From Diprion similis (taxonomy: Eukaryota > Arthropoda > Insecta > Hymenoptera > Diprionidae), in NCBI RefSeq assembly GCF_021155765.1, contig NC_060114.1, positions 12,553,001 through 12,617,000 of the forward strand: a stretch of DNA of 64,000 nt. The letters are read 5' to 3'. This document shows positions 1 to 58,824 of the stretch, one piece after another. The notes beneath the pieces were generated by a model. The model saw only the letters and a list, made by a program, of their open reading frames with translations. It was not told the origin of the DNA and ran no database searches. The translations under genes were made by a program, and so were the position numbers. Within the stretch, counting starts at the first letter, position 1. Every line of letters begins with the position of its first letter.

Positions 1-1239
1 CCCCTTTGGATTTTTTGCGAAAATTTTGACGATTCTGGAAAGTGCTGCAATAAAATTTGATAGGCACTATTCCGACGTAATTTTGCGAGAGAAATCGATT
101 GAGCGCAGTCCCAATACGCTGCGAGCGATAGCTGAAAAGTTACGGCCGAAAAACTCACGATTTTCATCAGCGTTTCTCTGCTGCTAGTCCTACGCTCTTT
201 TTGATGTGTTTTCTGAGTTCCTGGGGGTCGAATTACTCTAGAAACGGTCATACAAATCGATTTGGGGACGAGAAATTTTTCGCTCCCAAAATGACCAAAA
301 ACTAAGGCTAACCCCTTTGGATTTTTGGCGAAAATTTTGACGATTCTGGAAAGTGCTGCAATGAATTTTTATAGGCACTATTCCGACGTAATTTTGCGAG
401 AGGAATCGATTGAGCGCAGTCCCAATACGCTGCGAGCGATAGCTGAAAAGTTACGGCCGAAAAACTCATGATTTTTATCGGCATTTCTCTGCTGCTGGTC
501 CTACGCTCTTTTCGATGTGTTTTTTGAGTTCCTGGGGGTCGAATCACTCTAGGAATGGTCATACTAATCGATCTGAAGACGAAAAATTTTCCGCTCCAAA
601 AATGACCAAAAAAGGAAGGCTAACCCCTATGGATTTTTTGCGAAAATTTTGACGATTCTGGAAAGTGCTGCAATAAAATTTGATAGGCACTATTCCGACG
701 TAATTTTGCGAGAGAAATCGATTGAGCGCAGTCCCAATACGCTGCGAGCGATAGCTGAAAAGTTACGGCCGAAAAACTCATGATTTTCATCGGCGTTTCT
801 CTGCTGCTGGTCCTACGCTCTTTTTGATGTGTTTTCTGAGTTCCTGGGGGTCGAATTACTCTAGAAGTGGTCATACTAATCGATTTGAAGACGAAAAATT
901 TTCCGCTCTAAATTGACCAAAAAAGGAAGGCTAACCCCTTTGGATTTTTGGCGAAAATTTTGACGATTCTGGAAAGTGCTGCAATAAAATTTGATAGGCA
1001 CTATTCCGACGTAATTTTGCGGGAGAAATCGATTGAGCGCAGTCCCAATACGCTGCGAGCGATAGCTGAAAAGTTACGGCCGAAAAACTCATGATTTTCA
1101 TCGGCGTTTCTCTGCTGCTGGTCCTACGCTTTTTTCAATGTGTTTTTTGAGTTCCTGGGGGTCGAATTACTCTAGAAACGGTCATACAAATCGATTTGTA
1201 GACGAAAAATTTTCCGCTCCAAAAATGACCAAAAACTAA
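1..1239. repeat. Right end of a 9-monomer higher-order block
   Basis: Four monomers whose variants match the last four monomers of the 9-monomer block at 1240-4043: for example the CATCAGCGTTT variant near 167 recurs near 2967, and GCTTTTTTCAATGTG near 1129 recurs near 3932. The third monomer (near 618) is slightly different. The block therefore continues left of the window. Confidence 0.75.
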
Positions 1240-4043
1240 GGCTAACCCCTTTGGATTTTTGGCGAAAATTTTGACAATTCTGGAAAGTGCCAAAATAAAT
1301 TTTTACAGGCACTATTCCAACGTAATTTTGCGAGAGAAATCGATTGAGCGCAGTCCCAATACGCTGCGAGCGATAGCTGAAAAGTTACGTTCGAAAAACT
1401 CATGATTTTCATCGGCGTTTCTCTGCTGCTGGTCCTACGCTCTTTTTGATGTGTTTTCTGAGTTCCTGGGGGTCGAATTACTCTAGAAGTGGTCATACTA
1501 ATCGATTTGAAGACGAAAAATTTTCCGCTCTAAATTGACCAAAAAAGGAAGGCTAACCCCTTTGGATTTTTGGCGAAAATTTTGACGATTCTGGAAAGTG
1601 CTGCAATAAAATTTGATAGGCACTACTCCGACGTAATTTTGCGGGAGAAATCGATTGAGCGCAGTCCCAATACGCTGCGAGCGATAGCTGAAAAGTTACG
1701 GCCGAAAAACTCATGATTTTTATTGGCATTTCTCTGCTGCTGGTCCTACGCTCTTTTCGATGTGTTTTTTGAGTTCCTGGGGGTCGAATCACTCTAGGAA
1801 TGGTCATACTAATCGATTTGAAGACGAAAAATTTTCCGCTCCAAAAATGACCAAAAAAGGAAGGCTAACCCCTTTGGATTTTTTGCAAAAATTTTGACGA
1901 TTCTGGAAAGTGCTGCAATAAAATTTGATAGGCACTATTCCGACGTAATTTTGCGAGAGAAATCGATTGAGCGCAGTCCCAATACGCTGCGAGCGATAGC
2001 TGAAAAGTTACGGCCGAAAAACTCATGATTTTCATCGGCGTTTCTCTGCTGCTGGTCCTACGCTTCTTTCGATGTGTTTTTTGAGTTCCTGGGGGTCGAA
2101 TTACTCTAGAAATGGTCATACTAATCGATTTGAAGACGAAAAATTTTCCGCTTCAAAAATGACCAAAAAATGAAGGCTAACCCCTATGGATTTTTTGCGA
2201 AAATTTTGACGATTCTGGAAAGTGCTGCAATAAAATTTGATAGGCACTATTCCGACGTAATTTTGCGAGAGAAATCGATTGAGCGCAGTCCCAATACGCT
2301 GCGAGCGATAGCTGAAAAGTTACGGCCGAAAAACTCACGATTTTCATCGGCGTTTCTCTGCTGCTAGTCCTACGCTCTTTTTGATGTGTTTTCTGAGTTC
2401 TTGGGGGTCGAATTACTCTAGAAACGGTCATACAAATCGATTTAGGGACGAGAAATTTTTCGCTCCCAAAATGACCAAAAACTAAGGCTAACCCCTTTGG
2501 ATTTTTGGCGAAAATTTTGACGATTCTGGAAAGTGCTGCAATGAATTTTTATAGGCACTATTCCGACGTAATTTTGCGAGAGGAATCGATTGAGCGCAGT
2601 CCCAATACGCTGCGAGCGATAGCTGAAAAGTTACGGCCGAAAAACTCATGATTTTTATCGGCATTTCTCTGCTGCTGGTCCTACGCTCTTTTCGATGTGT
2701 TTTTTGAGTTCCTGGGGGTCGAATCACTCTAGGAATGGTCATACTAATCGATTTGAAGACGAAAAATTTTCCGCTCCAAAAATGACCAAAAAAGGAAGGC
2801 TAACCCCTTTGGATTTTTTGCGAAAATTTTGACGATTCTGGAAAGTGCTGCAATAAAATTTGATAGGCACTATTCCGACGTAATTTTGCGAGAGAAATCG
2901 ATTGAGCGCAGTCCCAATACGCTGCGAGCGATAGCTGAAAAGTTACGGCCGAAAAACTCACGATTTTCATCAGCGTTTCTCTGCTGCTAGTCCTACGCTC
3001 TTTTTGATGTGTTTTCTGAGTTCCTGGGGGTCGAATTACTCTAGAAACGGTCATACAAATCGATTTGGGGACGAGAAATTTTTCGCTCCCAAAATGACCA
3101 AAAACTAAGGCTAACCCCTTTGGATTTTTGGCGAAAATTTTGACGATTCTGGAAAGTGCTGCAATGAATTTTTATAGGCACTATTCCGACGTAATTTTGC
3201 GAGAGGAATCGATTGAGCGCAGTCCCAATACGCTGCGAGCGATAGCTGAAAAGTTACGGCCGAAAAACTCATGATTTTTATCGGCATTTCTCTGCTGCTG
3301 GTCCTACGCTCTTTTCGATGTGTTTTTTGAGTTCCTGGGGGTCGAATCACTCTAGGAATGGTCATACTAATCGATTTGAAGACGAAAAATTTTCCGCTCC
3401 AAAAATGACCAAAAAAGGAAGGCTAACCCCTATGGATTTTTTGCGAAAATTTTGACGATTCTGGAAAGTGCTGCAATAAAATTTGATAGGCACTATTCCG
3501 ACGTAATTTTGCGAGAGAAATCGATTGAGCGCAGTCCCAATACGCTGCGAGCGATAGCTGAAAAGTTACGGCCGAAAAACTCATGATTTTCATCGGCGTT
3601 TCTCTGCTGCTGGTCCTACGCTTTTTTCGATGTGTTTTTTGAGTTCCTGGGGGTCGAATTACTCTAGAAATGGTCATACTAATCGATTTGAAGACGAAAA
3701 ATTTTCCGCTTCAAAAATGACCAAAAAATGAAGGCTAACCCCTTTGGATTTTTGGCGAAAATTTTGACGATTCTGGAAAGTGCTGCAATAAAATTTGATA
3801 GGCACTATTCCGACGTAATTTTGCGGGAGAAATCGATTGAGCGCAGTCCCAATACGCTGCGAGCGATAGCTGAAAAGTTACGGCCGAAAAACTCATGATT
3901 TTCATCGGCGTTTCTCTGCTGCTGGTCCTACGCTTTTTTCAATGTGTTTTTTGAGTTCCTGGGGGTCGAATTACTCTAGAAACGGTCATACAAATCGATT
4001 TGTAGACGAAAAATTTTCCGCTCCAAAAATGACCAAAAACTAA
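1240..4043. repeat. Higher-order block A1 (9 monomers, 2804 bp)
   Basis: Nine consecutive monomers starting with the distinctive copy that carries GTGCCAAAATAAATTTTTAC and ACGTTCGAAAAA. The same monomer order recurs at 7471-10274. A diagnostic variant is TTTAGGGACGAGAA near 2451, shared with block A2 near 8672 but not with the B blocks. Confidence 0.85.
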
Positions 4044-7000
4044 GGCTAACCCCTTTGGATTTTTGGCGAAAATTTTGACAATTCTGGAAAGTGCCAAAAT
4101 AAATTTTTACAGGCACTATTCCGACGTAATTTTGCGAGAGAAATCGATTGAGCGCAGTCCCAATACGCTGCGAGCGATAGCTGAAAAGTTACGTTCGAAA
4201 AACTCATGATTTTCATCGGCGTTTCTCTGCTGCTGGTCCTACGCTCTTTTTGATGTGTTTTCTGAGTTCCTGGGGGTCGAATTACTCTAGAAGTGGTCAT
4301 ACTAATCGATTTGAAGACGAAAAATTTTCCGCTCTAAATTGACCAAAAAAGGAAGGCTAACCCCTTTGGATTTTTGGCGAAAATTTTGACGATTCTGGAA
4401 AGTGCTGCAATAAAATTTGATAGGCACTACTCCGACGTAATTTTGCGGGAGAAATCGATTGAGCGCAGTCCCAATACGCTGCGAGCGATAGCTGAAAAGT
4501 TACGGCCGAAAAACTCATGATTTTTATTGGCATTTCTCTGCTGCTGGTCCTACGCTCTTTTCGATGTGTATTTTGAGTTCCTGGGGGTCGAATCACTCTA
4601 GGAATGGTCATACTAATCGATTTGAAGACGAAAAATTTTCCGCTCCAAAAATGACCAAAAAAGGAAGGCTAACCCCTTTGGATTTTTTGCAAAAATTTTG
4701 ACGATTCTGGAAAGTGCTGCAATAAAATTTGATAGGCACTATTCCGACGTAATTTTGCGAGAGAAATCGATTGAGCGCAGTCCCAATACGCTGCGAGCGA
4801 TAGCTGAAAAGTTACGGCCGAAAAACTCATGATTTTCATCGGCGTTTCTCTGCTGCTGGTCCTACGCTTCTTTCGATGTGTTTTTTGAGTTCCTGGGGGT
4901 CGAATTACTCTAGAAATGGTCATACTAATCGATTTGAAGACGAAAAATTTTCCGCTTCAAAAATGACCAAAAAATGAAGGCTAACCCCTATGGATTTTTT
5001 GCGAAAATTTTGACGATTCTGGAAAGTGCTGCAATAAAATTTGATAGGCACTATTCCGACGTAATTTTGCGAGAGAAATCGATTGAGCGCAGTCCCAATA
5101 CGCTGCGAGCGATAGCTGAAAAGTTACGGCCGAAAAACTCACGATTTTCATCGGCGTTTCTCTGCTGCTAGTCCTACGCTCTTTTTGATGTGTTTTCTGA
5201 GTTCTTGGGGGTCGAATTACTCTAGAAACGGTCATACAAATCGATTTAGGGGCGAGAAATTTTTCGCTCCCAAAATGACCAAAAACTAAGGCTAACCCCT
5301 TTGGATTTTTGGCGAAAATTTTGACGATTCTGGAAAGTGCTGCAATGAATTTTTATAGGCACTATTCCGACGTAATTTTGCGAGAGGAATCGATTGAGCG
5401 CAGTCCCAATACGCTGCGAGCGATAGCTGAAAAGTTACGGCCGAAAAACTCATGATTTTTATCGGCATTTCTCTGCTGCTGGTCCTACGCTCTTTTCGAT
5501 GTGTTTTTTGAGTTCCTGGGGGTCGAATCACTCTAGGAATGGTCATACTAATCGATTTGAAGACGAAAAATTTTCCGCTCCAAAAATGACCAAAAAAGGA
5601 AGGCTAACCCCTTTGGATTTTTTGCGAAAATTTTGACGATTCTGGAAAGTGCTGCAATAAAATTTGATAGGCACTATTCCGACGTAATTTTGCGAGAGAA
5701 ATCGATTGAGCGCAGTCCCAATACGCTGCGAGCGATAGCTGAAAAGTTACGGCCGAAAAACTCACGATTTTCATCAGCGTTTCTCTGCTGCTAGTCCTAC
5801 GCTCTTTTTGATGTGTTTTCTGAGTTCCTGGGGGTCGAATTACTCTAGAAACGGTCATACAAATCGATTTGGGGACGAGAAATTTTTCGCTCCCAAAATG
5901 ACCAAAAACTAAGGCTAACCCCTTTGGATTTTTGGCGAAAATTTTGACGATTCTGGAAAGTGCTGCAATGAATTTTTATAGGCACTATTCCGACGTAATT
6001 TTGCGAGAGGAATCGATTGAGCGCAGTCCCAATACGCTGCGAGCGATAGCTGAAAAGTTACGGCCGAAAAACTCATGATTTTTATCGGCATTTCTCTGCT
6101 GCTGGTCCTACGCTCTTTTCGATGTGTTTTTTGAGTTCCTGGGGGTCGAATCACTCTAGGAATGGTCATACTAATCGATTTGAAGACGAAAAATTTTCCG
6201 CTCCAAAAATGACCAAAAAAGGAAGGCTAACCCCTATGGATTTTTTGCGAAAATTTTGACGATTCTGGAAAGTGCTGCAATAAAATTTGATAGGCACTAT
6301 TCCGACGTAATTTTGCGAGAGAAATCGATTGAGCGCAGTCCCAATACGCTGCGAGCGATAGCTGAAAAGTTACGGCCGAAAAACTCACGATTTTCATCGG
6401 CGTTTCTCTGCTGCTAGTCCTACGCTCTTTTTGATGTGTTTTCTGAGTTCCTGGGGGTCGAATTACTCTAGAAACGGTCATACAAATCGATTTGGGGACG
6501 AGAAATTTTTCGCTCCAAAAATGACCAAAAAAGGAAGGCTAACCCCTTTGGATTTTTTGCGAAAATCTTGACGATTCTGGAAAGTGCTGCAATAAAATTT
6601 GATAGGCACTATTCCGACGTAATTTTGCGAGAGAAATCGATTGAGCGCAGTCCCAATACGCTGCGAGCGATAGCTGAAAAGTTACGGCCGAAAAACTCAC
6701 GATTTTCATCGGCGTTTCTCTGCTGCTAGTCCTACGCTCTTTTTGATGTGTTTTCTGAGTTCCTGGGGGTCGAATTACTCTAGAAACGGTCATACAAATC
6801 GATTTGGGGACGAGAAATTTTTCGCTCCCAAAATGACCAAAAACTAAGGCTAACCCCTTTGGATTTTTGGCGAAAATTTTGACGATTCTGGAAAGTGCTG
6901 CAATGAATTTTTATAGGCACTATTCCGACGTAATTTTGCCAGAGGAATCGATTGAGCGCAGTCCTAATACGCTGCGAGCGATAGCTGAAAAGTTACGGCC

Positions 7001-7470
7001 GAAAAACTCATGATTTTCATCGGCGTTTCTCTGCTGCTGGTCCTACGCTCTTTTTGATGTGTTTTCTGAGTTACTGGGGGTCGAACTACTCTAGAAATGG
7101 TCATACTAATCGATTTGAAGACGAAAAATTTTCCGCTCCAAAAATGACCAAAAAAGGAAGGCTAACCCCTTTGGATTTTTGGCGAAAATTTTGACGATGC
7201 TGGAAAGTGCTGCAATAAAATTTGATAGGCACTATTCCGACGTAATTTTGCGAGAGAAATCGATTGAGCGCAGTCCCAATACGCTGCGAGCGATAGCTGA
7301 AAAGTTACGGCCGAAAAACTCATGATTTTCATCGGCGTTTCTCTGCTGCTGGTCCTACGCTTTTTTCAATGTGTTTTTTGAGTTCCTGGGGGTCGAATTA
7401 CTCTAGAAACGGTCATACAAATCGATTTGTAGACGAAAAATTTCCCTCTCCAAAAATGACCAAAAACTAA
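4044..7470. repeat. Higher-order block B1 (11 monomers, 3427 bp)
   Basis: It starts with the same distinctive monomer as block A and shares its first seven monomer types in order, then diverges and carries two extra monomers (near 6537 and 6848). A diagnostic variant is TTTAGGGGCGAGAA near 5246, shared with block B2 near 11477. The variants AAAATCTTGACG near 6562 and TTTTGCCAGAGG near 6936 occur only in B-type units. Confidence 0.85.
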
Positions 7471-10274
7471 GGCTAACCCCTTTGGATTTTTGGCGAAAAT
7501 TTTGACAATTCTGGAAAGTGCCAAAATAAATTTTTACAGGCACTATTCCGACGTAATTTTGCGAGAGAAATCGATTGAGCGCAGTCCCAATACGCTGCGA
7601 GCGATAGCTGAAAAGTTACGTTCGAAAAACTCATGATTTTCATCGGCGTTTCTCTGCTGCTGGTCCTACGCTCTTTTTGATGTGTTTTCTGAGTTCCTGG
7701 GGGTCGAATTACTCTAGAAGTGGTCATACTAATCGATTTGAAGACGAAAAATTTTCCGCTCTAAATTGACCAAAAAAGGAAGGCTAACCCCTTTGGATTT
7801 TTGGCGAAAATTTTGACGATTCTGGAAAGTGCTGCAATAAAATTTGATAGGCACTACTCCGACGTAATTTTGCGGGAGAAATCGATTGAGCGCAGTCCCA
7901 ATACGCTGCGAGCGATAGCTGAAAAGTTACGGCCGAAAAACTCATGATTTTTATTGGCATTTCTCTGCTGCTGGTCCTACGCTCTTTTCGATGTGTTTTT
8001 TGAGTTCCTGGGGGTCGAATCACTCTAGGAATGGTCATACTAATCGATTTGAAGACGAAAAATTTTCCGCTCCAAAAATGACCAAAAAAGGAAGGCTAAC
8101 CCCTTTGGATTTTTTGCAAAAATTTTGACGATTCTGGAAAGTGCTGCAATAAAATTTGATAGGCACTATTCCGACGTAATTTTGCGAGAGAAATCGATTG
8201 AGCGCAGTCCCAATACGCTGCGAGCGATAGCTGAAAAGTTACGGCCGAAAAACTCATGATTTTCATCGGCGTTTCTCTGCTGCTGGTCCTACGCTTCTTT
8301 CGATGTGTTTTTTGAGTTCCTGGGGGTCGAATTACTCTAGAAATGGTCATACTAATCGATTTGAAGACGAAAAATTTTCCGCTTCAAAAATGACCAAAAA
8401 ATGAAGGCTAACCCCTATGGATTTTTTGCGAAAATTTTGACGATTCTGGAAAGTGCTGCAATAAAATTTGATAGGCACTATTCCGACGTAATTTTGCGAG
8501 AGAAATCGATTGAGCGCAGTCCCAATACGCTGCGAGCGATAGCTGAAAAGTTACGGCCGAAAAACTCACGATTTTCATCGGCGTTTCTCTGCTGCTAGTC
8601 CTACGCTCTTTTTGATGTGTTTTCTGAGTTCTTGGGGGTCGAATTACTCTAGAAACGGTCATACAAATCGATTTAGGGACGAGAAATTTTTCGCTCCCAA
8701 AATGACCAAAAACTAAGGCTAACCCCTTTGGATTTTTGGCGAAAATTTTGACGATTCTGGAAAGTGCTGCAATGAATTTTTATAGGCACTATTCCGACGT
8801 AATTTTGCGAGAGGAATCGATTGAGCGCAGTCCCAATACGCTGCGAGCGATAGCTGAAAAGTTACGGCCGAAAAACTCATGATTTTTATCGGCATTTCTC
8901 TGCTGCTGGTCCTACGCTCTTTTCGATGTGTTTTTTGAGTTCCTGGGGGTCGAATCACTCTAGGAATGGTCATACTAATCGATTTGAAGACGAAAAATTT
9001 TCCGCTCCAAAAATGACCAAAAAAGGAAGGCTAACCCCTTTGGATTTTTTGCGAAAATTTTGACGATTCTGGAAAGTGCTGCAATAAAATTTGATAGGCA
9101 CTATTCCGACGTAATTTTGCGAGAGAAATCGATTGAGCGCAGTCCCAATACGCTGCGAGCGATAGCTGAAAAGTTACGGCCGAAAAACTCACGATTTTCA
9201 TCAGCGTTTCTCTGCTGCTAGTCCTACGCTCTTTTTGATGTGTTTTCTGAGTTCCTGGGGGTCGAATTACTCTAGAAACGGTCATACAAATCGATTTGGG
9301 GACGAGAAATTTTTCGCTCCCAAAATGACCAAAAACTAAGGCTAACCCCTTTGGATTTTTGGCGAAAATTTTGACGATTCTGGAAAGTGCTGCAATGAAT
9401 TTTTATAGGCACTATTCCGACGTAATTTTGCGAGAGGAATCGATTGAGCGCAGTCCCAATACGCTGCGAGCGATAGCTGAAAAGTTACGGCCGAAAAACT
9501 CATGATTTTTATCGGCATTTCTCTGCTGCTGGTCCTACGCTCTTTTCGATGTGTTTTTTGAGTTCCTGGGGGTCGAATCACTCTAGGAATGGTCATACTA
9601 ATCGATTTGAAGACGAAAAATTTTCCGCTCCAAAAATGACCAAAAAAGGAAGGCTAACCCCTATGGATTTTTTGCGAAAATTTTGACGATTCTGGAAAGT
9701 GCTGCAATAAAATTTGATAGGCACTATTCCGACGTAATTTTGCGAGAGAAATCGATTGAGCGCAGTCCCAATACGCTGCGAGCGATAGCTGAAAAGTTAC
9801 GGCCGAAAAACTCATGATTTTCATCGGCGTTTCTCTGCTGCTGGTCCTACGCTTTTTTCGATGTGTTTTTTGAGTTCCTGGGGGTCGAATTACTCTAGAA
9901 ATGGTCATACTAATCGATTTGAAGACGAAAAATTTTCCGCTTCAAAAATGACCAAAAAATGAAGGCTAACCCCTTTGGATTTTTGGCGAAAATTTTGACG
10001 ATTCTGGAAAGTGCTGCAATAAAATTTGATAGGCACTATTCCGACGTAATTTTGCGGGAGAAATCGATTGAGCGCAGTCCCAATACGCTGCGAGCGATAG
10101 CTGAAAAGTTACGGCCGAAAAACTCATGATTTTCATCGGCGTTTCTCTGCTGCTGGTCCTACGCTTTTTTCAATGTGTTTTTTGAGTTCCTGGGGGTCGA
10201 ATTACTCTAGAAACGGTCATACAAATCGATTTGTAGACGAAAAATTTTCCGCTCCAAAAATGACCAAAAACTAA
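7471..10274. repeat. Higher-order block A2 (9 monomers, 2804 bp)
   Basis: A near-identical copy of block A1, displaced by exactly 6231 bp from its A1 position, with the same order of monomer variants and the same diagnostic TTTAGGGACGAGAA near 8672. The near identity suggests recent amplification of a two-block unit. Confidence 0.85.
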
Positions 10275-13200
10275 GGCTAACCCCTTTGGATTTTTGGCGA
10301 AAATTTTGACAATTCTGGAAAGTGCCAAAATAAATTTTTACAGGCACTATTCCGACGTAATTTTGCGAGAGAAATCGATTGAGCGCAGTCCCAATACGCT
10401 GCGAGCGATAGCTGAAAAGTTACGTTCGAAAAACTCATGATTTTCATCGGCGTTTCTCTGCTGCTGGTCCTACGCTCTTTTTGATGTGTTTTCTGAGTTC
10501 CTGGGGGTCGAATTACTCTAGAAGTGGTCATACTAATCGATTTGAAGACGAAAAATTTTCCGCTCTAAATTGACCAAAAAAGGAAGGCTAACCCCTTTGG
10601 ATTTTTGGCGAAAATTTTGACGATTCTGGAAAGTGCTGCAATAAAATTTGATAGGCACTACTCCGACGTAATTTTGCGGGAGAAATCGATTGAGCGCAGT
10701 CCCAATACGCTGCGAGCGATAGCTGAAAAGTTACGGCCGAAAAACTCATGATTTTTATTGGCATTTCTCTGCTGCTGGTCCTACGCTCTTTTCGATGTGT
10801 TTTTTGAGTTCCTGGGGGTCGAATCACTCTAGGAATGGTCATACTAATCGATTTGAAGACGAAAAATTTTCCGCTCCAAAAATGACCAAAAAAGGAAGGC
10901 TAACCCCTTTGGATTTTTTGCAAAAATTTTGACGATTCTGGAAAGTGCTGCAATAAAATTTGATAGGCACTATTCCGACGTAATTTTGCGAGAGAAATCG
11001 ATTGAGCGCAGTCCCAATACGCTGCGAGCGATAGCTGAAAAGTTACGGCCGAAAAACTCATGATTTTCATCGGCGTTTCTCTGCTGCTGGTCCTACGCTT
11101 CTTTCGATGTGTTTTTTGAGTTCCTGGGGGTCGAATTACTCTAGAAATGGTCATACTAATCGATTTGAAGACGAAAAATTTTCCGCTTCAAAAATGACCA
11201 AAAAATGAAGGCTAACCCCTATGGATTTTTTGCGAAAATTTTGACGATTCTGGAAAGTGCTGCAATAAAATTTGATAGGCACTATTCCGACGTAATTTTG
11301 CGAGAGAAATCGATTGAGCGCAGTCCCAATACGCTGCGAGCGATAGCTGAAAAGTTACGGCCGAAAAACTCACGATTTTCATCGGCGTTTCTCTGCTGCT
11401 AGTCCTACGCTCTTTTTGATGTGTTTTCTGAGTTCTTGGGGGTCGAATTACTCTAGAAACGGTCATACAAATCGATTTAGGGGCGAGAAATTTTTCGCTC
11501 CCAAAATGACCAAAAACTAAGGCTAACCCCTTTGGATTTTTGGCGAAAATTTTGACGATTCTGGAAAGTGCTGCAATGAATTTTTATAGGCACTATTCCG
11601 ACGTAATTTTGCGAGAGGAATCGATTGAGCGCAGTCCCAATACGCTGCGAGCGATAGCTGAAAAGTTACGGCCGAAAAACTCATGATTTTTATCGGCATT
11701 TCTCTGCTGCTGGTCCTACGCTCTTTTCGATGTGTTTTTTGAGTTCCTGGGGGTCGAATCACTCTAGGAATGGTCATACTAATCGATTTGAAGACGAAAA
11801 ATTTTCCGCTCCAAAAATGACCAAAAAAGGAAGGCTAACCCCTTTGGATTTTTTGCGAAAATTTTGACGATTCTGGAAAGTGCTGCAATAAAATTTGATA
11901 GGCACTATTCCGACGTAATTTTGCGAGAGAAATCGATTGAGCGCAGTCCCAATACGCTGCGAGCGATAGCTGAAAAGTTACGGCCGAAAAACTCACGATT
12001 TTCATCAGCGTTTCTCTGCTGCTAGTCCTACGCTCTTTTTGATGTGTTTTCTGAGTTCCTGGGGGTCGAATTACTCTAGAAACGGTCATACAAATCGATT
12101 TGGGGACGAGAAATTTTTCGCTCCCAAAATGACCAAAAACTAAGGCTAACCCCTTTGGATTTTTGGCGAAAATTTTGACGATTCTGGAAAGTGCTGCAAT
12201 GAATTTTTATAGGCACTATTCCGACGTAATTTTGCGAGAGGAATCGATTGAGCGCAGTCCCAATACGCTGCGAGCGATAGCTGAAAAGTTACGGCCGAAA
12301 AACTCATGATTTTTATCGGCATTTCTCTGCTGCTGGTCCTACGCTCTTTTCGATGTGTTTTTTGAGTTCCTGGGGGTCGAATCACTCTAGGAATGGTCAT
12401 ACTAATCGATTTGAAGACGAAAAATTTTCCGCTCCAAAAATGACCAAAAAAGGAAGGCTAACCCCTATGGATTTTTTGCGAAAATTTTGACGATTCTGGA
12501 AAGTGCTGCAATAAAATTTGATAGGCACTATTCCGACGTAATTTTGCGAGAGAAATCGATTGAGCGCAGTCCCAATACGCTGCGAGCGATAGCTGAAAAG
12601 TTACGGCCGAAAAACTCACGATTTTCATCGGCGTTTCTCTGCTGCTAGTCCTACGCTCTTTTTGATGTGTTTTCTGAGTTCCTGGGGGTCGAATTACTCT
12701 AGAAACGGTCATACAAATCGATTTGGGGACGAGAAATTTTTCGCTCCAAAAATGACCAAAAAAGGAAGGCTAACCCCTTTGGATTTTTTGCGAAAATCTT
12801 GACGATTCTGGAAAGTGCTGCAATAAAATTTGATAGGCACTATTCCGACGTAATTTTGCGAGAGAAATCGATTGAGCGCAGTCCCAATACGCTGCGAGCG
12901 ATAGCTGAAAAGTTACGGCCGAAAAACTCACGATTTTCATCGGCGTTTCTCTGCTGCTAGTCCTACGCTCTTTTTGATGTGTTTTCTGAGTTCCTGGGGG
13001 TCGAATTACTCTAGAAACGGTCATACAAATCGATTTGGGGACGAGAAATTTTTCGCTCCCAAAATGACCAAAAACTAAGGCTAACCCCTTTGGATTTTTG
13101 GCGAAAATTTTGACGATTCTGGAAAGTGCTGCAATGAATTTTTATAGGCACTATTCCGACGTAATTTTGCCAGAGGAATCGATTGAGCGCAGTCCTAATA

Positions 13201-13701
13201 CGCTGCGAGCGATAGCTGAAAAGTTACGGCCGAAAAACTCATGATTTTCATCGGCGTTTCTCTGCTGCTGGTCCTACGCTCTTTTTGATGTGTTTTCTGA
13301 GTTACTGGGGGTCGAACTACTCTAGAAATGGTCATACTAATCGATTTGAAGACGAAAAATTTTCCGCTCCAAAAATGACCAAAAAAGGAAGGCTAACCCC
13401 TTTGGATTTTTGGCGAAAATTTTGACGATGCTGGAAAGTGCTGCAATAAAATTTGATAGGCACTATTCCGACGTAATTTTGCGAGAGAAATCGATTGAGC
13501 GCAGTCCCAATACGCTGCGAGCGATAGCTGAAAAGTTACGGCCGAAAAACTCATGATTTTCATCGGCGTTTCTCTGCTGCTGGTCCTACGCTTTTTTCAA
13601 TGTGTTTTTTGAGTTCCTGGGGGTCGAATTACTCTAGAAACGGTCATACAAATCGATTTGTAGACGAAAAATTTCCCTCTCCAAAAATGACCAAAAACTA
13701 A
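10275..13701. repeat. Higher-order block B2 (11 monomers, 3427 bp)
   Basis: A near-identical copy of block B1, 6231 bp downstream. It includes the B-specific variants TTTAGGGGCGAGAA (near 11477), AAAATCTTGACG (near 12793) and AATTTCCCTCTCC (near 13670). Confidence 0.85.
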
Positions 13702-14947
13702 GGCTAACCCCTTTGGATTTTTGGCGAAAATTTTGACAATTCTGGAAAGTGCCAAAATAAATTTTTACAGGCACTATTCCGACGTAATTTTGCGAGAGAA
13801 ATCGATTGAGCGCAGTCCCAATACGCTGCGAGCGATAGCTGAAAAGTTACGTTCGAAAAACTCATGATTTTCATCGGCGTTTCTCTGCTGCTGGTCCTAC
13901 GCTCTTTTTGATGTGTTTTTTGAGTTCCTGGGGGTCGAATTACTCTAGAAGTGGTCATACTAATCGATTTGAAGACGAAAAATTTTCCGCTCTAAATTGA
14001 CCAAAAAAGGAAGGCTAACCCCTTTGGATTTTTTGCGAAAATCTTGACGATTCTGGAAAGTGCTGCAATAAAATTTGATAGGCACTATTCCGACGTAATT
14101 TTGCGAGAGAAATCGATTGAGCGCAGTCCCAATACGCTGCGAGCGATAGCTGAAAAGTTACGGCCGAAAAACTCACGATTTTCATCGGCGTTTCTCTGCT
14201 GCTAGTCCTACGCTCTTTTTGATGTGTTTTCTGAGTTCCTGGGGGTCGAATTACTCTAGAAACGGTCATACAAATCGATTTGGGGACGAGAAATTTTTCG
14301 CTCCCAAAATGACCAAAAACTAAGGCTAACCCCTTTGGATTTTTGGCGAAAATTTTGACGATTCTGGAAAGTGCTGCAATGAATTTTTATAGGCACTATT
14401 CCGACGTAATTTTGCCAGAGGAATCGATTGAGCGCAGTCCTAATACGCTGCGAGCGATAGCTGAAAAGTTACGGCCGAAAAACTCATGATTTTCATCGGC
14501 GTTTCTCTGCTGCTGGTCCTACGCTCTTTTTGATGTGTTTTCTGAGTTACTGGGGGTCGAACTACTCTAGAAATGGTCATACTAATCGATTTGAAGACGA
14601 AAAATTTTCCGCTCCAAAAATGACCAAAAAAGGAAGGCTAACCCCTTTGGATTTTTGGCGAAAATTTTGACGATGCTGGAAAGTGCTGCAATAAAATTTG
14701 ATAGGCACTATTCCGACGTAATTTTGTGAGAGAAATCGATTGAGCGCAGTCCCAATACGCTGCGAGCGATAGCTGAAAAGTTACGGCCGAAAAACTCACG
14801 ATTTTCATCGGCGTTTCTCTGCTGCTAGTCCTACGCTCTTTTTGATGTGTTTTTTGAGTTCCTGGGGGTCGAATTACTCTAGAAACGGTCATACAGATCG
14901 ATTGGGCGACGAGAAATTTTCGGCTCCGAAATTGACGAAAAAAGTAA
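13702..14947. repeat. Truncated last higher-order block (4 monomers)
   Basis: It opens with the distinctive first monomer of a block, then jumps directly to monomers matching positions 9, 10 and 11 of block B (AAAATCTTGACG near 14038, TTTTGCCAGAGG near 14411, GATGCTGGAAAG near 14672). An internal deletion of about seven monomers in a former B block explains this simply. Confidence 0.7.
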
Positions 14948-15349
14948 GGCTAACCCCTTTGGATTTCTGGCGAAAATTTCGACGTCTTTGAAAAGTGCTG
15001 CAATTAATTCGTTGAGGCACTATTCCGACGTAATTTTGCGAGAGGAATCGATTGAGCGCAGTCCCAATACGCTGCGAGCGATAGCTGAAAAGTTACGGCC
15101 GAAAAACTCATGATTCTCATCGGCGTATCTCTGCTGCTGGTCCTACGCTCTTTTTGATGTGTTTTCTGAGTTCCTGGGGGTCGAATTACTTCAGAAATGG
15201 TCATACTAATCGATTTGAAGACGAAAAATTTTCGGCTCCCAAAATGACCAAAAAAGTAAGGCTAACCTCCTCGAATTTGTGGTGAAAATTTCGTCGATTT
15301 CGAAAAGTGCTGGAAGTGATTTGTTAGAGCTCTGACAATCGCAAACACG
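14948..15349. repeat. Diverged edge monomer plus truncated monomer
   Basis: The first 312 bp are one monomer with many changes in its left third, while the middle third (about 15024-15113) still equals the array consensus. A second monomer begins near 15258 and breaks off after about 90 bp. This is the usual decay of a tandem array at its edge. Confidence 0.85.
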
Positions 15350-17050: not shown

Positions 17051-21314
<4,264 letters not shown>

Positions 21315-25970: not shown

Positions 25971-28900
25971 TTAATCAAATTTTATTCGTTTACTAAATTC
26001 TTCTTGCTGCTTTTCCCTCCATGCTTTCTTTGGCTTTATTCTTTTCAGCTGACCATCCCTAAGATCATGAAAAAATGAGGCGCTATACATTTGTTATATC
26101 ACAAGCAAAACATATAATATTCATTTCAAAAGCAGCATCACAATATTTATATGTGAGGTTTTTATCACGCATGAATATTAATATGCAAAGAAGATATTAT
26201 TGAATTTACCATTGGAGATCGACAAGTCCGCCCTGCCTGGCGATTACAGCTTTAACTCTGTTAGCAAAGTCAATAGCACTCTCTCCATCCTGTCTGTACA
26301 TGGGTGGCAAGTACCAAACATCACAGACTATCGCCCAGCTACTCATCATCATGTATAAATACTGGATCATTGAATATTTGCTACTGTTCCAAAAAGCATC
26401 ACCAAACTTTGGATCGTACTGTAAGAAAAATAAAATACCTAGATGACTTCTTTGACTATTCGACACCTGTCGGATTGCATGTTCGTGAGTTTCTAGACTG
26501 TAACAATGACATCATTGCATTTGATTGAGAATTTATAAATATGTTAAGATAATTGAATTTTTAATTAAACAAAAAATCATGTGAGAGCAGACAAAAATGC
26601 GTTTTACCTTTATGGCAACAGGGTATATTACACCTCCTACTTCAAAGCTACCTTTTTTGAACTGCATTACAGAAGTGTTATTAATACAGGTTCCTTCAGG
26701 AAATATCAATATCGGTGGATTCGAAGGATCTGAGACATGCTTCTTTAACCTGTTGGAAATTTTTAACGTTTTATTTTTTTCTTACCCTTTCAGTAATTTA
26801 TGATAAACATGTACAAGCATATAGCAATACCTTTTTGTAACAGCTTCTCTGTCTTTAACTTCTGATCTTTCAAACCAAATATGAGGGGAAGCTCGAGCAA
26901 GAGCACGTTGAAGAATCCCTAAAAACCCGCCATGTCGTTGACCTATCTGTAAGAATGGTTGTAAAGGAAATTAGGAACCTTATTTCGTCTGACAATGAAG
27001 TTCTTATGTTTCTATCAAGCAGCCAAGCATTAATCGAATGCATTAATTAAAACTTTTTACATAAACCTTAGGATCAATTCTTCTTTCAGTAATCTCAATG
27101 GTAAAAACGAGATTACAATTAAATTCATGTTTTGAATTACACGATTTTTCGAGAGAATTGATTATATTCCATGAGTGTTTACAACCAAACGAAATATTTC
27201 TTCATTTAAACAGAAATTATACACTACAAAAAAAACCATGCATGCAGCAAATTTTATACACAAAAAATGAATAAACGCAACTATCAAAAACAAGTAACAC
27301 TAAATACATCTGCATCACTACCAGGATGTCTAGAAATAACGAATAATATTTTCCAGTGAAAAAGGAAAATAAACAACAAACCATAAAGCTATCGAGAAGA
27401 AAACAATAAAGCACAATAAAGGTTCATTAAAATTAAAAGAATAAAACGAAGCCAAAGCTTGGGAGAAGGATGGGAAAGAGAAATAAGAGAGTGAAGAATT
27501 AGCCACATTTGAACTACCCTTTGTAGATCGATGAGAGGGTATAACTTTAGAGAAGTTCAGACTGATTCCAATTCGAGCTTATAGAAATGGTTAGTGTGAA
27601 AATGTTATGTATAACAAATTAAAGATATAAGAATGGTTAATAGCTGGTAAATAGTAAAATATCGAAATAAAATTCTGTCCATTCAATCTTTGAGCAAGTA
27701 GGAGACGTACCAAAGAATAAGAGTTATCGCGCATGAGAACAAGCACGTCAATAGGTGATGTGTGATTGGCGACACAAATACCCCTCAGTGGTCGGTTCTC
27801 AGTGTTGTGGTAGTGGATAACTGAGGAAAGCGCACTGGATAGTACGCTGAAGCACATTATTGATACTCTGTGGTTCAGCCATCTTTTGAATCTACCTTCT
27901 GGCACATATCCCACAACCGCTGTACACGCCGTCAGCCACATCACCTGCAAATACAACTTTCACAACTTAGCAAAGCAGTGCACAAGATATTGCCAATATT
28001 TGGGAAGACATTTTGCAGAAAAATTACGGATCATCTTCTCGTTTCCTTTCTCTTTATTTAAGTAGCTGTTATACAGTTACTCAGTAAAAAGTAGTCGATA
28101 GTTGGTCAACTTGCATTATCAATTAGTTTTGCTAATTCAACTAGTTTATGCTGAAGTGGATAATTTTTCTTCTAAATATTAGGATAACCATGAGATTGAT
28201 CATCATCTAATAGAAATTTGCTTGAAACTTGTACAAGAAAAAAAAAACGCCCCATTTTTTTTTGGATGATAATAACCTGATGTTCCAGTGTATATCCATA
28301 TAAGTAGTTGTCCACAACGTAATTGGTTTTGGCATTTTGGTACAGGAGGATAAAAAGTTTATCTTGACAATTAGGGAATACTTTAAGAAGTGAGGGAAAT
28401 GATCAACTTGGATTTCCAGAATTATACATAGAAAAATTTCTCCACATTGAACATTTACATCATTTTTACTACCCCTGGCAATCAAGGCTCATGGGAGTAG
28501 TAATTGTAATAACAAGAATCACAGTATATATACAACAGACACATAAATAAACGAGACAAAAATTTTTCATAACTCTCGCTGACCGGCAAGTGACAATTAA
28601 GTACAAAGCACATGTCATCTGCATTATATTTATCCCATACATAAACGCACGTACACATGGATGGAGGTGTAACTGGACATAGAACATTACCTATACCCCG
28701 TGACGACTAATGTAGCTCGCAATAACAAAGTTCTTTAATTTTTTAAATTGATTTACCAACGAAAATGTTGTCTGAGCAGACAATATTCCAACATCTATCG
28801 TTGACGTATGATTTGCAACGCATACTCCTCCTCCTTTCGGCATATACTCTGGATTGTGTACGGTTATAACGCCGGATACAGAACGTACAAAAATTCTGAA

Positions 28901-31900
28901 CGCTATCAAGGAAGCGTGTTCACTTAGCCAACGTTTTATCACTCCGTCCGGCATAAAGCCAACAATAAATGTCGTCGCTACCAGCCACACTGCCTAAAGA
29001 GCTTAATCAGTATTAGTAGTGCCCAGATTGTATAACTCCAATTTCTATTCTCTTCGGCGTAAAAAATCAATGAGTTTAGCCATCATCAAAATTACGACTA
29101 TTATTCTTCAAATGTGTAAACTCACCCCAATGAAACAGATGAGTATCCTTAAAGGGAGAAGGAAGCAGTATCGCATCAGGAAGCCAAACATCCATATGAC
29201 TGTCAACTTCCAAGAGATGAATTCGTAGTGTCTATTGGTTCTCGTTAAGAGATTCCAATTCTGTAAGTGTAAAATGACTTCATAGAAACGAGTTTCTCGA
29301 TAGCTAAGGGATAGAAAAAAAAAAAACCGAAATGCAAGGCGAAAAATGGTGAGAAATCTCCATGGACCAGAAACAATTAAAATCCATCATAACACTCAAT
29401 ACCTACTTTCGATAGTCATAGGTACTTGTGTGTACTAAGACTATCAGGGTATTGTTGATTAACCTCAATTATGATGCGATAATAAACATTATCGGTAATT
29501 CCCACCTTAAGTTCTTCGGCCTCGAACCTGGACGTTACTTCATCTTCAATAATCGCTTCGACGCCAGCCCTGATGTAATCCAGACAGGTCGATGTGTCGA
29601 ATTCTCGTTTCAACATCTCGAATGAGTCTTCTCTAGGTAAGCTACTCTGAAATAATAAAAATATCTTATACTATATACACAATTTTATCTGATTATTAGG
29701 TTTTTAAGCATGTGCGCATCGATTGATAATGAGATTTTGATATTTTGTATTCCTAATTCAATGTCATATCGTATTTTGAAATAATTAATCTGTACAAGCA
29801 ATCACCGAAGCTAGACAAGTCAAATCAATTTAAAAAAATTTTATTTCAATCTTCTAAAATTTTTCAACTTTTAAGGACATTACAAAATGTCTTACTTTTC
29901 TTTCGTTTGTTTTACAGACAGTGTATAAGCTGCTGTAGGAACAAAGTCTTGTATTCAAAACAAATATTTAGATTGTTACAATGACGACGTACGTATGTAT
30001 GTTCACAACAAAATCCCAGGGGAAAATTACTGTCTTAAATTTAATTATCGCCTCCAATATCAATGGATAACATTTTACCTCTTTGTTACCGTTCACTTCC
30101 AGTGTATTTCCATAAGAATGACTGTGATTATCATGATTGATGTGATTTTTGTTATTCATTTCTGGTTCTGGAACCATAATTAGGTCTTTCGACCTGGCGA
30201 TCACCGAATTTCCAAGTACTCCATTCTGTTTCTTCTCCGTCGCATTGTACTTTTTGTAATTTCTGGGAAAATTAGCAGATGTATCGTTTCCAGTATCTTC
30301 TGAGGCTCCGCTTTCATCCTCGCTTTCATCGGGTTCCCAATTTCTGTTGTTTTTCCTTACTTTTTCAATATTTTGTCTTCCAAACTGCAAGTCAGAAGAG
30401 GTAAAATTATTGTAAACTTATCACATAGTCATAGATTCAAGTAATCTACATTTCAAACAAAAATTTCAAAGTCGTCAGGCCATAGAATAAATTAATATGT
30501 GTGACCATGAATTCGGTACAGCTATGAAGAATTTGTAAAAAAATGTGACTTTGGGTGAATAAATAGAACCTAGAAATATATTTTGGGAGAAACACTGGCG
30601 TTGAGTTCATACCCATGAAAAAAACTAAAAATAGACTCCAGACGTCAACACTGACGATGAGTGCAAACTAACTTATGGCATAGCTGTTTATAGACTCCAT
30701 ACAACAGTTTCTAACTTCTGATAAATACAAAGATAATTCCAATCAATCTCGGATGAAGTAAGAATATTGCAGAAATATATCCACAAGAAGCATCTGAACT
30801 TTGAGCATTTTTTTTATGTGAATGGTATGAGTGATCAGTTTCAATTACGTCACAGATCAAGAAAATAATAAAGTAGCACATGCAAACTTAAAATGCAATT
30901 ATTCTTTAGCTTTGGTATTGTCTTATTTATCAATTGTTCCAACTTGTTGTTGCTGCAAGATACGAGCACTCTGATATATCCAGATTACGAATTACGGTCG
31001 ACAGAAAGATACATGTCCCTTCATATATTAATGAAACTCACACTTATACTTTCACTAACAAACAATGTAAATATCAAAGTTCACTGTTTCTTAAATCTGT
31101 CAAATTGAACGAATATTTTAGAAAACGCAACAATTATATTTATATATTTATTTATTTTTCTTTGCACATATTTTATTGTCAGGGTGAAAAGTAATTCAAA
31201 TTTTAGAACAACTCGTGCAATTTGTCCCGAATAGAAAAAATATACCTTCGTCTTTGATAAAGAAGGAAAGACTGACAAGAATCAAGTTCCGTATGTATGT
31301 CAATGTAGTCTGAGCTAAGAATACCTTTTGATGAGCATTTGCTGACTTTTACTCTAGCTTGTTGCATAAGCTGTTGTTAATATTTTGTCGACACCTCAGC
31401 TAAGGTCTTCAAAACTGATTTGGACAAGCACAGAAAAAGGAAAGACAAAGAAAATGAGAAAAGAATATGCAATATCCAATGAGAATCCATGGTATGCATG
31501 CATTGATTGTGCAATGCACATTGGCACTCGATTGTCCCGTCGCTGCTCAAGATTATTGCGCAATTTCATTGGTTCCTAAAGTAATTATGGAATTACTATT
31601 CCATTTGCATCATCAGCTAAAAGTGCCATACGCCTAACATGTGTTTACGATCGCAGAGTATTGTTCAGGCAGTAACAAAACGGGATAATATCAACGCCTG
31701 TCGATATATTGACTTTGATGAATAAATGTTTCTATTTTTTCAAACAAATTTCACAACTTTGAAACAGTCTTGTAAACATTTATTATTTCTAATTACTTGC
31801 ATGTGATTCGAACACTCATTTGTTTACCTATTTATTTCAATAATATACGGAATAACCCCATGACAACATGGAATAATAATACAGGTAGCACAAACACAAA

Positions 31901-34900: not shown

Positions 34901-35915
34901 ATCATATCATGGCGATGACGGATGTCATCACTGCCCGTGGCGGTAATTTATTCGATTGAATTAGTCAAACGGAATTAAAGTCCGGAAGGTGAATATACCT
35001 AACCGCATTCAGATAGGCATAAAATGTGAAATTTGTCGGGCAATCGAAGCATGGCGGTAAAAAAATTAATTTCGTAAAAAAATCTATGTCTTGGATAAAT
35101 TCAAGATCGAAAAACGGCTGAAAAATCGAACGACATGAAGGACAAACAAAGATCATGTTGAAGTTAGTAACGTTTCATGATGAGGAAAAACCGTTATTTC
35201 GCGATTTTAGAATTATCTGAAATTCAGTAAACCGTAATAAAAGATAACGCGCTGATATTTCGAAATTTTAGTTTCCTCAAAATCATTGTGAAATTAAGGC
35301 AATAGTGATCTTATCCCCAATGTTTCGTTACTATAACGTTATCAACTTCAACCTTGCAATGAAAGTATAAATTACAGGAGACAAACTTCGCTGTAAGCGA
35401 AAAAAGGGCAAGACGTAAACAAATCGTAAGCCAACCATGGGTTGAAATCGAATTGGTGAAAAAATTTAAGGACTATCGTATGCACCATAGACAGTACGGT
35501 TACGATTTGACAAAGGTTACGTACAAATGCGGAATCGATTGCTCAGGTGTAGGACACTCGTTTGACAATAATTGATGATCATCTATGACAGTGAGTATTA
35601 TTGCCGGAAGGAAATGACGGCTGGATTATTCGTTTGGTCAATTGGACTTTTAACAAGACTGATTCAGCTTTATATCGAAGAGTATTATAGCCCTATGCAT
35701 TGGGAATTGTAGGCTGTCTCACGTTTATGAATACATAAAAATAGACCCGCTTTACTATTTACCTCGAAAATTGCTAGCAACAATTTAACGTAGAGCCTCC
35801 TGACACCTAGTGACTTTCCAATCGATGCCAAAAATAGGACTGCCAGTAGAAACATCAAAAACGGCGTCAACAGCAGCGAGAAACCCACCGACACCACCGA
35901 CCACAATAACGCCAT
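25971..35915 (-). CDS. Gpat4: Glycerol-3-phosphate acyltransferase 4 (GPAT3/4 type)
   Basis: An ER membrane acyltransferase making lysophosphatidate from glycerol-3-phosphate and acyl-CoA, the first step of glycerolipid synthesis. Exons in transcript order: 35915-35763, 30384-30079, 29646-29506, 29260-29126, then 28993-28757 or 27944-27711, then 26946-26831, 26749-26608, 26418-26210, 26058-25971. They join in frame to 508 or 507 residues. Features: an N-terminal hydrophobic segment from about residue 4 to 33; an acidic, Asn-rich linker from exon 2 that makes the protein longer than the roughly 456-residue human GPAT4; hydrophobic segments in exons 4-5; motif I NHTS(P/T)ID; FERSEVKDR; motif III FPEGTCINN; then VAIKYDPKFGDAFWNSSKY. 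The first intron is 5.4 kb. Two homologous fifth exons are present. The gene is divergent from the ATP synthase e gene. Confidence 0.93.
27711..27944 (-). other. Gpat4 alternative exon 5B (motif NHTSPID)
   Basis: A 234-bp, phase-0 exon encoding 78 residues from VMWLTACTAVVGY to NSYSL, with the canonical NHTSPID motif. The acceptor is TATTTGCAG|GTG and the donor TTG|GTACGT. It looks closer than 5A to vertebrate GPAT4 (VVGY, GRFK, GICVANHTSPID). It lies 812 bp downstream of 5A in transcript order. Both exons have the same phase at both ends, so either can be joined to exons 4 and 6. Confidence 0.88.
28757..28993 (-). other. Gpat4 alternative exon 5A (motif NHTSTID)
   Basis: A 237-bp, phase-0 exon encoding 79 residues from AVWLVATTF to TTFSL, with motif I written NHTSTID. 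It follows exon 4 after a 132-bp intron. The in-frame acceptor is CTCTTTAG|GCAGTG; using the second AG four bases later would give an early stop. It covers the same part of the family as exon 5B and is about 45% identical to it (35 of 78 positions by eye). The Thr in place of the usual Pro in motif I is distinctive. Confidence 0.88.
30385..35762 (-). other. Large first intron of Gpat4
   Basis: A 5.4-kb AT-rich intron with a GTAAAT donor and TTGCAG acceptor. No nested gene is supported. A small direct repeat, GCTCAAAAG in about 2.6 tandem copies of 10 bp, is at 34827-34852. Short open frames here have no recognisable products. Confidence 0.7.

Positions 35916-41946: not shown

Positions 41947-44388
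<2,442 letters not shown>

Positions 44389-45906: not shown

Positions 45907-49014
<3,108 letters not shown>

Positions 49015-51871: not shown

Positions 51872-54051
<2,180 letters not shown>

Positions 54052-56432: not shown

Positions 56433-58824
<2,392 letters not shown>

Follow-up and report, generated by a model that had tools for sequence, protein, structure and literature searches.

Two versions of a catalytic exon in a GPAT3/4-type acyltransferase gene of Diprion similis, probably used one at a time

Does a gene that carries the same catalytic segment twice use the copies as alternatives, use both together, or use one and let the other decay? The question is raised by a GPAT3/4-type acyltransferase gene of Diprion similis (Hymenoptera, Diprionidae). 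It lies on the minus strand of a stretch of 64,000 nucleotides of contig NC_060114.1 (assembly GCF_021155765.1, positions 12,553,001 to 12,617,000), which is called the window here and whose numbering is used throughout. The gene is complete, with eight constant coding exons (e1 to e8) and, between e4 and e5, two alternative-looking ones, exon A (28757..28993, minus strand) and exon B (27711..27944, minus strand). Judged from the DNA alone, A and B are probably mutually exclusive, with exactly one copy in each transcript.

Exon A has 79 codons (237 bp) and exon B has 78 (234 bp). Both are open, are in phase 0 at each end, and have an AG acceptor and a GT donor. The second half of a hairpin is found at about 28993-28928 in A and 27944-27879 in B, and motif I reads NHTSTID in A (28813-28793) and NHTSPID in B (27767-27747); these assignments are based on frame, borders, alignment, and matches to PF01553. 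Aligned over 79 columns, one gap included, the encoded proteins share 45% identity, and their alignment score of 182 compares with a mean of -29.6 (standard deviation 10.8, maximum 9) for 2000 shuffles of B. Similarity at the DNA level is confined to the exons. A comparison that took in flanks of 132-400 bases gave one alignment across the exon, 241 bases long (E value 1e-4), and all others had E values of at least 0.88. Between e1 and e5, 19 of 6433 intronic windows of 79 codons are free of stops. Taken as a single exon, A scores 29.2 bits and B 25.3 bits against PF01553, for which the cut-off is 23. An earlier note on this DNA had described two exons of 237 and 234 bp, in phase 0 at both ends and encoding the same segment at about 45% identity, and had given the same two sequences for motif I; all of this is exact to the base. 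The hairpin half, and the fact that joining or skipping both exons preserves the frame, are additions to that note. These features indicate that one internal coding exon has been duplicated in tandem.

Several products are compatible with the reading frame: 508 residues with A, 507 with B, 586 with A and B, and 429 with neither, the last without motif I. Splicing of e4 (29126..29260) to A and of A to e5 (26831..26946) would give the 508-residue enzyme, and the path from e4 through B to e5 the 507-residue one. The two isoforms would share all the motifs of the constant exons and would differ at about 55% of positions across a segment of 79 residues, which would comprise the second hairpin half, the stretch that follows it, and motif I. 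Each has one complete PF01553 domain (97.8 bits for A and 93.5 bits for B, profile positions 2-132), and we infer that both would be active acyltransferases. In a comparison with solved structures, exon B had no match at an E value of 1, and isoform B matched just an unrelated chain (E value 0.5).

It is unlikely that A and B behave as cassette exons that are included together in at least some transcripts, giving the 586-residue enzyme with its hairpin half and motif I doubled. The junction of A to B is in frame, the intron between them is an ordinary one of 812 bp, and the joined protein gives two PF01553 stretches (119.3 bits). In addition, the fly exon CG3209:4 was scored as an exon of variable inclusion, which fits a cassette and an exclusive pair alike; it is entered in the column of regulators in a table of exons whose use varies during development (PMC4603746). 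However, a second copy of 78 residues between the hairpin and the catalytic core would probably break the conserved fold, and the splice sites of both exons are weak. In the fly, moreover, similar exons seldom lie side by side without being exclusive: passages of a survey of the X chromosome report that 6 of 1705 genes have adjacent exons that resemble each other in length, phase, and sequence but carry no annotation as exclusive, and that 65 internal exons were predicted to be exclusive, of which 26 had been annotated so before (PMC3228551). Given this base rate and the probable damage to the fold from doubling a core segment, we favour exclusive use as the best reading of the pair.

Some observations weigh against that reading. 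The product with A and B and the product with neither are both in frame, so the frame itself gives no exclusivity. The donors of A and B rank 10 and 12 among 140 GT sites, and GTs that pair better with U1 are present in the region. Pairing between the introns around A and B, calculated for three intron pairs in windows of 60 bases, was matched or bettered by 25 of 30, 26 of 30, and 3 of 12 shuffles. One scan each of the viral and the genome contig collections with the exon alignment (A1) and with e7 found no relative; the insect genome covered was the present one alone. The earlier prediction of two mutually exclusive isoforms is thus partly supported: the old duplication and the preserved protein stand, with exclusive use as their best explanation, but the DNA by itself does not compel the use of one copy only.

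The splice sites themselves were compared among the nine donors and nine acceptors of the gene, the donors being scored by their pairing energy with the 5' end of U1. The donor of B is the weakest of the nine (-4.9) and that of A (-5.3) is tied with that of e7, while the strongest (-10.4) is the donor of e4, from which either A or B has to be selected. The AG-exclusion zones of A and B are the shortest of the nine acceptors, at 8 and 12 nt, followed by one of 17 nt. Regulated exons usually have sites of this sort, and A and B resemble them, on small numbers.

Docking/selector RNA pairing operates in Dscam and 14-3-3zeta. No such pairing was found here, where exclusivity is a prediction, and a competing intron RNA structure of the docking type is unsupported, its duplexes being no stronger than those of shuffles. 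Exclusion by an over-short intron was rejected, since the 812 bp between A and B are too long for steric exclusion, and exclusion by the reading frame was rejected on the in-frame products given above. Cis elements such as competing RNA pairing or an over-short intron occur in known exclusive clusters and do not define the class. The default guess for exclusivity would be that trans-acting factors repress one or the other of the two weak exons.

The start of exon B has a peculiarity of its own. Its acceptor reads ttgcag/GTGATG (the slash marks the exon border), and a donor-like sequence overlaps it at 27950-27939 on the minus strand. As a donor, cag/GTGATG is the best U1 match of 37 AGGT sites between 25980 and 36000, and it is second of the 140 GT sites around the pair, behind the e4 donor. 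If A were spliced to B, a 5' splice site would be restored, TTG/GTGATG, with an energy of -6.2, against -4.9 for B's own donor. Re-splicing at rebuilt sites has a precedent in the Ubx microexons of Drosophila. In the present gene B would be removed in a second step after A had been joined to it, leaving A spliced to e5, and B could be included only if it were protected or were spliced early to e5. Since the site rebuilt at the junction of e4 and B is stronger (-7.4) than that at A and B, the idea does not by itself yield both isoforms. Two junctions that lack a GT where the exons meet have comparable energies (-7.7 for e4-A and -6.1 for e4-e5), and the energies of rebuilt junctions alone are therefore not specific. 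That the swapped exon is a switch of membrane address and catalysis, with one isoform at the droplet and one at the endoplasmic reticulum, or with differing acyl-CoA preference, and that its exclusivity comes about by re-splicing, is accordingly a speculative proposal to which we give a low probability.

If only one copy were in use, the other would be a dead or dying relic. Features that could be seen in this light are the donor of B, which is the weakest and is accompanied by the donor-like sequence over its acceptor, and the changed residue in motif I of A (T for P). How the two copies have diverged points the other way. Over 78 codons, A and B differ at 36, 21, and 57 first, second, and third positions, respectively. 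The proportion of differences is 0.81 at silent sites (pS) and 0.38 at replacement sites (pN), compared with 0.74 and 0.74 for shuffled codons; being pairwise, the comparison is silent on whether both branches stayed constrained throughout. Silent sites that are saturated while the protein is held indicate that the pair is old and constrained, and the duplication can be taken to be an old one. So old a relic would be expected to carry stops or frameshifts, but both copies are open over 78-79 codons with AG and GT borders, both keep the H and D of motif I, and each passes the PF01553 cut-off alone. We regard decay of one copy as very improbable.

A comparison with human GPAT4 bears on the same point. 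The human sequence is the one outgroup. Identity to it is 43% for A, 49% for B, 60% for e4, and 66% for the constant part that follows the swapped exon. Across the 79 columns of A, B, and the human protein, all three agree in 23, A and B alone in 12, A and human in 11, and B and human in 16, and all differ in 17. Relative to the human protein, A has retained RI.VR in the middle of the segment, and B has retained VGY, GRF, RP, and NHTSPID. Each copy thus keeps human residues that the other has lost, as expected if both are used. The pattern fits two constrained copies that would have arisen after the split from vertebrates, and we offer this as a lead only.

Protein searches of the 269 Mb genome, in which the best candidates were scored with a cut-off at an E value of 1, returned B and A only when B was the query and A and B only when A was, with an E value of 2.6e-16 for the partner in both directions. 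Exons e4 and e7 each had one match, and no second set of constant exons was found elsewhere in the genome by the searches with these two exons. An origin of A and B from separate genes, or from an artefact of assembly, has next to no probability, for no point in its support was found, the gene model is single and contiguous on one strand, e4 and e7 each match one genomic place, the sole matches of A and B are to one another, and the 45% identity of A and B rules out uncollapsed haplotypes.

If A and B are exclusive alternatives, the swap would affect both the hairpin and motif I. The hairpin begins in e4, with its first half at about 29230-29126, where a tryptophan aligns with W164 of human GPAT4, which we take to correspond to W172 of the fly protein. 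On that assumption, the hairpin here would span residues 211-267, of which 35 are encoded by e4 and 22 by A or B. Its residues W217 and W223 lie in e4, and W3, K20, R21, and W22 of the swapped exon are invariant between A and B. The known counterpart is LiveDrop, a lipid-droplet probe that consists of GPAT4 residues 160-216 (PMC5035145) and derives from the fly GPAT4 protein (PMC12459407), whose central tryptophan is W172 (PMC13278972). Passages of the last source report that droplet targeting depends on tryptophans and basic residues, that a tryptophan mutant is still found at droplets with weaker confinement, and that a mutant without both kinds of residue nearly lost targeting (PMC13278972). 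The hairpin assembled from e4 and either A or B aligns with LiveDrop and has tryptophans and basic residues as LiveDrop does; both copies keep two tryptophans and the Lys-Arg pair. The difference is that here, as mapped through alignment to the human protein, the last 22 of the 57 hairpin residues exist in two versions. Since W3, K20, R21, and W22 are kept in both, the two versions do not differ in the residues known to set the address. A switch of localisation between the isoforms is possible but is not indicated by these sequences.

For motif I, the earlier note had predicted different surroundings of the catalytic site in the two isoforms. The T/P difference is there, but it falls within the variation seen elsewhere in this genome, where two further acyltransferase exons have NHQSSLD and NHRTRVD at the corresponding place. 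Being within this normal range, the one substitution is not enough to predict a new activity. Elsewhere in the swapped exon, residues 28-46 include two arginines in A and none in B. It is plausible that the swap would alter a preference for acyl-CoA or for membrane.

The arrangement resembles the exclusive tandem exons known from insect Dscam, Mhc, and 14-3-3zeta, with which A and B have in common that they are adjacent and internal, near-equal in length, in the same phase, homologous, and within a single gene (features as set out in passages of PMC3228551). The difference is in what is exchanged, here the catalytic motif I and part of the membrane hairpin of an enzyme of lipid synthesis. The gene has the same order of motifs, hairpin, and PF01553 domain as GPAT4 and GPAT3 (the fly GPAT4 is CG3209), and the segment that has two versions here is single in human GPAT4. 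No description of exclusive exons in GPAT4 was found in the literature searched, which was covered mostly by listing and with the main fly survey outside its scope, and neither PMC3228551 nor PMC3923563 mentions CG3209 in its main text. Tandem exon duplication is of a known kind, and the GPAT4 case is new as far as that literature goes; it is quite possible that the isoforms are already annotated in FlyBase or RefSeq.

The gene model was built from similarity to human GPAT4, splice borders, and a continuous frame, and its introns are GT-AG. All constant exons are on the minus strand. Exon e1 (35763..35915) has the start ATG at 35915 and encodes an N-terminal membrane segment; it is placed by similarity to the human protein, its donor GAG/gtaaat, and an open frame. 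Exon e2 (30079..30384) is placed by splice borders and the continuous frame. Similarity and splice borders define e3 (29506..29646), e4, e5, which contains the GQRHGGFLGILQR region, e6 (26608..26749), which carries the FPEGTC and PVAIK motifs, and e7 (26210..26418), with e4 and e7 also single in the genome. The last coding exon, e8 (25971..26058), is placed by similarity and frame, and its stop TAA was read in the sequence at 25973-25971. Features of the GPAT3/4 class that are present are PF01553 with motif I (HX4D), the FPEG motif, and constant regions that are GPAT4-like by comparison with the human sequence. By its domain and motif order the gene is thus a predicted acyltransferase of the GPAT3/4 type, in keeping with the Gpat4 label it was first given, and the junctions listed with that label (29126, 28993, 28757, 27944, 27711, and 26946) agree with the full model.

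The genome contains 17 matches to PF01553 in a profile search, counted without match-by-match classification. Two adjoining sets of them, about 17 kb apart, lie at G000:C6:13932164-13950607 (L008, L009, L012, L018-L020) and may represent two tandem copies of a different acyltransferase gene. The 269 Mb also contain 103 matches to PF02949, an odorant-receptor family not known outside insects, as befits an insect genome. Elsewhere in the window, a tandem satellite array with a period of 312 bp (49.2 copies, 93% matches) occupies positions 1-15312, up to the left end. Open frames resembling a Prp43/DHX15-type DEAH-box helicase, identified by eye, are at 17544-19900 on the plus strand. Open frames resembling four alpha-tubulin genes in tandem, also identified by eye and on the plus strand, are at about 42589-44388, 47135-49014, 52302-54051, and 57366-58824; by eye and unaligned, their proteins are similar, and in each gene an intron appears to follow a short first exon.

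The exchange of A for B may tune acyl-CoA or membrane preference of the enzyme in particular tissues or stages. If exclusive use is true, the gene would amount to a natural exchange experiment on the region in which the enzyme's membrane address and its catalysis are coupled, and it would have the added interest that the swapped part includes half of a much-used lipid-droplet targeting hairpin.

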